Source: Rhodococcus gordoniae | Lineage (GTDB): Bacteria > Actinomycetota > Actinomycetes > Mycobacteriales > Mycobacteriaceae | Direction: 5' to 3' | NCBI RefSeq assembly: GCF_001646655.1 | Contig: NZ_LPZN01000015.1 | Location: forward strand, 1 to 64,000 | DNA: 64,000 nt | Shown: in pieces, positions 1 to 1,537 of the stretch | How positions within the stretch are numbered: position 1 is the first letter of the stretch | How the letters are laid out: every line of letters begins with the position of its first letter | Program-made: the position numbers and the translations under genes | Notes under the pieces: model-generated | Seen by the model: the letters and a program-made list of their open reading frames with translations, nothing else | Database searches by the model: none | Told to the model about the DNA's origin: nothing

Positions 1-146
1 CCCGCCGGCAGGTGCGAGGGAGACGGCGCGAGGTTCGCGGTCATCGCGCCGACCGTCACCAACGTCATGCCCGTGACGGCGGTACCCGTCGTCGAACCAC
101 GGGTGGTCTCGGCGCCCTCCGACGAGCGACGGGCCGTTCGCGGCAT
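1..146 (-). CDS. Partial flippase paralogue, N-terminus only, runs off the left edge
   Basis: Reading leftward from the ATG at 146, the first 48 codons give MPRTARRSSEGAETT and continue without a stop to the window edge. They match the start of the flippase gene at 275 almost residue for residue. The main difference lies at codons 40-43: the facing gene has SYLL inside its first membrane segment and this copy has PSPS, which would break that helix. It may be a second lipid-linked oligosaccharide flippase or the broken end of a duplication; the rest of the gene is needed to decide. It shares the short region 147-274 as a divergent promoter with the gene at 275. Confidence 0.55.
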   Translation of the reverse strand, partial: MPRTARRSSEGAETTRGSTTGTAVTGMTLVTVGAMTANLAPSPSHLPA

Positions 147-420
147 CCGCTCATCCGCCCATCCGGAACGACACCGGGTGCTGCCGCCAGTGCCGCCCGG
201 ATGGGCATGCGGGACGACTCCGGGCGTGGCATGGCGGCAGAATACGGTGTCGTTCCGGATGGGAGGATGAGCGGATGCCGCGAACACCCCGACGCGCGTC
301 GGAGGGCGCCGAGACCACCCGTGGTTCGACGACGGGTACCGCCGTCACGGGCATGACGTTGGTGACGGTCGGCGCGATGACCGCGAACCTCGCGTCGTAT
401 CTGCTGCACCTGCCGGCGGG
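1..420. repeat. Long inverted repeat spanning two divergent flippase gene starts
   Basis: Base i pairs with base 421-i. Positions 27-124 are identical, base for base (98 of 98), to the reverse complement of 297-394. Positions 125-180 match 241-296 with a few mismatches, and 1-15 match 406-420 exactly. The centre lies near 210, where CTGCCGCCA and TGGCGGCAG face each other. The repeat includes both start codons and the first 40 or so codons of the divergent genes. Identity extends through third codon positions, so this is a recent duplication or gene conversion rather than old paralogy; an assembly artefact cannot be excluded because the left arm stops at the window edge. Confidence 0.9.
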
Positions 421-1537
421 ACGCTGGCTCGGGCCCGCCGGATACGGCGAGTTCGCGAGCCTGCTCGCCGCACAACTCGTCCTCGCCGTGCCGGCCCTGG
501 CGTTGCAGACGGTCGTCGCCCGGGAGGCCGTGCACGGCACGGGTACCGCCGCTCTGCGCCGTCTCGGTTACCGCTGCGCCGTGCTGGCCTTCGTCGTCGC
601 GATGCTCCTCGTGCCCGTCGTGGCGTGGGCGCTCGACACGAGCGTCGGGGGAGCGTTCGGATCGCTCCTCACCGCACCGCTGCTCGTCCTGCTCGCCGCC
701 GAACAGGGTCTGCTCCAGGGGCGGGGCAGGTTCGCTGCGCTCAGTGTCGTCCTGGCCGCCGCAGGCATCGCGAAGGTGGTGCCGGCGGTCGCTGTGCTCG
801 CCGTCGGAGGCGGTCCCGGCGCCGCGCTGTTCGCCGGTGCGATCGGGACAGGTGTGGTCGCGCTGGCCGCGCGCGCGCTGGTGGGCCGGACGTCCGGTGG
901 CGGGCAGGAGCCGGCCCCGACCGCGGGGGCGGTTCTGCGCGCCTCCCAGGTGCAGCTGGCCCTCATCGCGCTCACCTCGCTCGACCTGCTGCTCGCCCGC
1001 ACGCTGCTCGACCCCGATTCCGCCGGCCTGTACGCCCTGGGAGCGGTCGCGACGAAGGTCGCCTTCTGGCTGCCGCAGGCGGTCGGGGTGGTGCTCTATC
1101 CGCGGATGGCGAACCCCGCGCAGTCGGCGGCCGCGGTGCGCTCGGCCCTCACGGTCCTCGTCGCGATCGGCGCAGTGCTCGTCGCCGGGGCCGCGATCTG
1201 CGGGCCGCTCGTCCCGATGCTCGTCGGCGACGCCTACGGTCCTGTGCAGTCGCTGCTGTGGCTGTTCGCGCTGCAGGGTGCCTGCCTCGCGGTGCTCCAG
1301 GGCGCGTTGCTGTCGGCGATCGCCGGGGAGCGCACCCATCTCGCGCTCGTCGCGTGGGCGGGTCTCGCCCTCGAAACGGTGCTGATGTTCACGGTGGCAT
1401 CGACCCTGCAGCAGTTCGTCGGCGTCGCCGTCGGGGTGGCCGCCGCGACCGCCGCGGTGGTCGCGGTACTCGCGGTGCGCGGTGCTGCAGCGACCCGGTC
1501 ACACACGGACGAAACCGCCCCCCACCGGGATCGGTGA
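275..1537 (+). CDS. Polysaccharide/oligosaccharide flippase family membrane protein
   Basis: A 420-residue integral membrane protein with about 12 hydrophobic segments, the first beginning near residue 25. It resembles the Wzx/MurJ-like MOP superfamily, which moves lipid-linked sugars across the membrane. Early motifs typical of the family are visible, such as LGPAGYGEFASLLAAQ around residues 50-65. The length fits the family. The start is chosen because GGGAGG lies just upstream and because the divergent copy conserves the same ATG. Nearby aftD and the acyltransferase suggest an envelope-glycan role, but the substrate cannot be read from sequence. A bidirectional terminator overlaps the stop codon. 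Confidence 0.8.
   Translation: MPRTPRRASEGAETTRGSTTGTAVTGMTLVTVGAMTANLASYLLHLPAGRWLGPAGYGEFASLLAAQLVLAVPALALQTVVAREAVHGTGTAALRRLGYRCAVLAFVVAMLLVPVVAWALDTSVGGAFGSLLTAPLLVLLAAEQGLLQGRGRFAALSVVLAAAGIAKVVPAVAVLAVGGGPGAALFAGAIGTGVVALAARALVGRTSGGGQEPAPTAGAVLRASQVQLALIALTSLDLLLARTLLDPDSAGLYALGAVATKVAFWLPQAVGVVLYPRMANPAQSAAAVRSALTVLVAIGAVLVAGAAICGPLVPMLVGDAYGPVQSLLWLFALQGACLAVLQGALLSAIAGERTHLALVAWAGLALETVLMFTVASTLQQFVGVAVGVAAATAAVVAVLAVRGAAATRSHTDETAPHRDR

Follow-up and report, generated by a model that had tools for sequence, protein, structure and literature searches.

Interrupted palindromes are a described artefact of sequencing libraries: Star et al. 2014 (PMC3946424) attributed them to hairpin priming on single-stranded molecules. 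Related artefacts include chimeric reads that form through short reverse-complementary regions in formalin-fixed human samples (SimFFPE/FilterFFPE; PMC8458033), the chimeras of multiple displacement amplification, which are mostly inverted with an intervening deletion and are primed at 2-21 complementary nucleotides (PMC1855051), and enzymatic fragmentation artefacts with palindromic context (PMC6941819). In a literature search, we found no description of foldbacks specifically at the ends of bacterial contigs. Here we analyse a long inverted repeat that occupies the first 420 bases of a 64,000-nucleotide stretch of the Rhodococcus gordoniae draft genome (contig NZ_LPZN01000015.1; G000:C29:1-64000 in our numbering, and "the window" hereafter). 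Our proposal, held with a probability of about 95%, is that bases 1-180 arose as a foldback (snap-back) chimera at the contig terminus and hence are an artefact. The mirror-image duplication is almost certainly not in the bacterial chromosome.

The locus shares its main features with these artefacts. As in the libraries of Star and colleagues, a strand seems to have folded at a short natural inverted repeat and then used its own 5' part as a template; the arm made by extension is rich in mismatches while the template arm is true to the reference. In contrast to their study, our case is the end of a contig assembled for a bacterial draft, and the arm is longer (180 base pairs, bp). The chimeric reads of PMC8458033 likewise have a short reverse-complementary seed at the junction and adjacent inverted repeats of one locus, but those came from formalin-fixed human samples, whereas ours is known from assembled sequence. 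It also resembles the inverted chimeras made by multiple displacement amplification, and its seed of 9 nucleotides is within the 2-21 range.

The draft has 114 contigs, and the window opens at base 1 of one that is 125,999 bp long; the repeat is thus located right at a contig end. When the window is compared with itself, the two arms (1-189 and 232-420, with 42 nucleotides between them) are complementary at 175 of 189 sites (93%). The longest perfect run is 98 bases (27-124 paired with 297-394), which confirms the identical stretch reported in the first-pass annotation of this DNA. The self-reverse-complement score at the start of the window is 624, as compared to 83 or less across 320 internal pieces of 800 bp, and the repeat far exceeds chance. 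At the turn of the hairpin is a short inverted repeat of 9 bp. The parts of the structure, as we read them, are:

1-180: left arm at the contig terminus, almost certainly false; it repeats 241-420 as a reverse complement, apart from 14 base differences (this reading is based on the inverted repeat, on private mismatches, and on relatives that do not have this arm to the left of the gene)
181-189: first half of the putative fold-back seed, CTGCCGCCA, which pairs with 232-240; the collinear match to relatives starts at 181-183
190-231: hairpin loop, genuine chromosome between two divergent genes; window 181-240 aligns to the related genome G013 at 93%
232-240: second half of the putative seed, TGGCGGCAG, which pairs with 181-189
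241-420: right arm, genuine, and the likely template for the false copy; the upstream region and first codons of a flippase-like gene, collinear with relatives at 92-95%

The seed site is less perfect in relatives (G013 reads CTGCAGGCA), so part of the 9-bp seed may itself be an error.

The first-pass annotation had proposed a comparison with related strains, and this comparison supports an artefact. We used four related genomes that are near-complete (G013, G004, G008, and G005, with 1 to 4 contigs each). All four match the window at 92-95% identity and collinearly, but only from 181-183 rightward, to position 600. The only sequence in them that matches bases 1-201 is this same locus, the flippase-like gene, read on the reverse strand, and each of them has one copy of the gene. 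The inverted repeat is absent from all four genomes. On the left side of the break, other sequence is present in G013 and G004, and where relatives were read leftward, a different, divergent membrane-protein gene comes next.

The missing left neighbour is on another contig of the same draft. The left flank in G013 (L003:4-1380) matches C38:105008-106384 at 93%, and C38 terminates at 106386. Judging by the spacing in G013, a gap of about 118 bp lies between the end of C38 and window position 181, and the two contigs were left unjoined. The neighbouring gene encodes a membrane protein and is unrelated to the flippase-like gene. In G013, its protein starts with MPVRAALPAVWSLALTVAVLGPF and continues to LGLSDAAARAVPQDALLAWV; the fragment on C38 covers the downstream portion of this protein and begins with LSDAAARAVPQDALLAWV. 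The start of the gene is within the window:

182-208, minus strand: start of the true divergent neighbour gene, with its ATG at 208-206 and the first residues MPIRAALAA; the start codon lies inside the loop, the gene is cut by the fold, and the rest is on C38

In the relatives, the N-terminus of this protein reads MPVRAALPAVW... or MSTTAALPAVW.... In the window, the reading frame after MPIRAALAA runs into the fold and breaks there. Because the first codons are in the loop and the remainder is on C38, the loop is real chromosome and the left arm almost certainly is not. Both the relatives and contig C38 indicate that the chromosome continues leftward with unique sequence and without the left arm.

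The sites at which the arms differ also point to the left arm as the false one. We aligned the six closest relatives, on both strands, at the 14 differing sites; they side with the right arm at 11-13 of these sites and with the left arm at 1. The left arm contains an open reading frame whose N-terminus is nearly that of the right copy, but this is a stub of 48 residues. As the first-pass annotation noticed, the left copy differs in the first membrane helix (NLAPSPSHLPAG on the left versus NLASYLLHLPAG on the right). This change of YLL to SPS is among the left-arm differences, which are private and clustered, as would be expected from erroneous extension and not from a conserved second gene. 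We considered two other sources for the left arm. Another locus was rejected: when bases 1-180 were searched against their own genome, they matched just themselves and their own right arm, besides a weak and unconvincing match of 37 bp on C34. Another strain is disfavoured, as the left-arm variants have no match in any relative.

Similar foldbacks are found at other contig ends of this draft. We sampled 97 usable ends (contigs under 3 kilobases were read as N) and compared them to the 320 internal pieces, which overlap and some of which are from relatives. The self-complementarity score was at least 100 at 5 of the 97 ends (the start of C29, which is the start of the window; the end of C49; the far end of C29; the start of C1; and the end of C61) and at none of the 320 internal pieces (Fisher p of about 6e-4, which is approximate given the overlaps and the pieces from relatives). 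All five foldbacks touch the terminus or sit no more than 2 bases from it. At the end of C49 (L203), collinearity with the relatives again extends as far as the fold; the terminal arm matches that locus in reverse, and about 8 bp are shared at the junction. The far end of C29 (L191) shows the same pattern, again with relatives that lack the fold, but the origin of that arm is less certain because C89 has sequence similar to this region. The start of C1 (L119) has a terminal foldback of the same kind; the comparison to relatives covered the end of C49 and the far end of C29. The foldback at the end of C61 is short and could be an ordinary terminator hairpin.

Some contig ends carry shorter perfect palindromes. 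The starts of C46 (L163) and C13 (L131) have the same 20-bp palindrome, CGTCGCGGCCGGCCGCGACG, and the start of C78 (L235) has one of 28 bp, TTACGTACGTATCATGATACGTACGTAA.

A snap-back chimera could arise as follows. A fragment from the library or from amplification, with a single-stranded end near window position 181, would fold at 181-189/232-240, and a polymerase would extend the folded end with its own strand (241-420) as the template. Reads from such molecules would lead the assembler to run the contig end into a false reverse-complement copy that contains base errors. This false extension would arise where the true sequence stayed unjoined to C38, presumably because low coverage broke the assembly there. 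The enzymatic step may have been end repair, the polymerase chain reaction, or whole-genome amplification.

Three points weigh against this explanation. First, the case is built on the assembly and on relatives rather than on read coverage over bases 1-180. Second, the arms differ at 7% of sites, which is above ordinary polymerase error, so a specific error source is needed. Third, the errors have a bias towards G at two ends that is absent at the third: of the changes at bases other than G, 11 of 13 go to G in the terminal arm at the end of C49 and 9 of 12 at the start of C29, but only 3 of 12 at the far end of C29. We tried a single error source that produces changes to G, and rejected it because it fits only two of the three ends.

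The alternative that survives best, though we consider it very improbable, is a real and recent foldback (inverted) duplication in this strain. Replication or the repair of a break would have generated it at the same 9-bp inverted repeat; mutation would then have eroded the left arm, and the neighbouring gene would be split from its start codon. Foldback inversions via short inverted repeats do happen in living cells, for example in yeast (PMC7467729), and the non-identity of the arms could mean age. However, 7% divergence implies an age at which traces would be expected in relatives, and none has the repeat. A real duplication would also leave the neighbouring gene without its own start codon, but what remains of this gene is intact all the way to the end of C38. 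Furthermore, the repeat stops precisely where the contig does, and other contig ends show the pattern too.

The first-pass annotation had interpreted the repeat as a divergent pair of flippase genes, and had named three possible explanations: gene conversion between the paralogues, duplication by foldback, and an error of assembly. The last of these is the right one (more exactly, a chimeric contig end), and neither biological explanation is supported. The proposed pair is one full gene and the stub, and because the true left neighbour is an unrelated gene on another contig, no divergent pair of flippase genes exists here. Conversion between two such paralogues would account for the nearly identical N-terminus in the open frame of the left arm, but it is even less probable than a real duplication. 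We searched the genome for a second flippase gene and found none beyond the 48-residue stub; the left-hand gene in relatives is unrelated; and the changes in the left arm, including the YLL to SPS change, match no relative. With no second flippase in the genome or at this locus in relatives, there is no gene conversion to explain. Equally improbable is an invertible-promoter switch (phase variation): the divergent start codons are indeed separated by a short spacer with inverted repeats on either side, but none of the relatives examined has the repeat, a second target gene is lacking, and the contig end cuts the left repeat short (no search aimed at recombinase genes was made).

The gene to the right of the fold is real and single-copy:

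275-1537, plus strand: open reading frame for a flippase-like membrane protein of 420 amino acids

The nearest named relatives of this protein are from Rhodococcus (87% identity to the protein from Rhodococcus sp. CH91), and it is conserved in Rhodococcus, Nocardia, Gordonia, Tsukamurella, and their relatives. Positions 275-1534 had no match in curated families, either in Pfam at E = 0.01 or in NCBIfam at E = 1, and the name "flippase" rests on the impression of the first-pass annotation. Convergent with this gene, on the minus strand at 1566-2801, is its right-hand neighbour, a gene that matches the NCBIfam family PgfA (cell envelope lipid trafficking; E = 3e-107).

These results have no bearing on the biology of the organism; their relevance is to curation. 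Foldback arms of about 55 to 180 bp, probably false, are present at several contig ends of this draft. Such arms can lead to genes, paralogues, and inverted repeats that do not exist, and trimming contig ends that fold on themselves would clear them.
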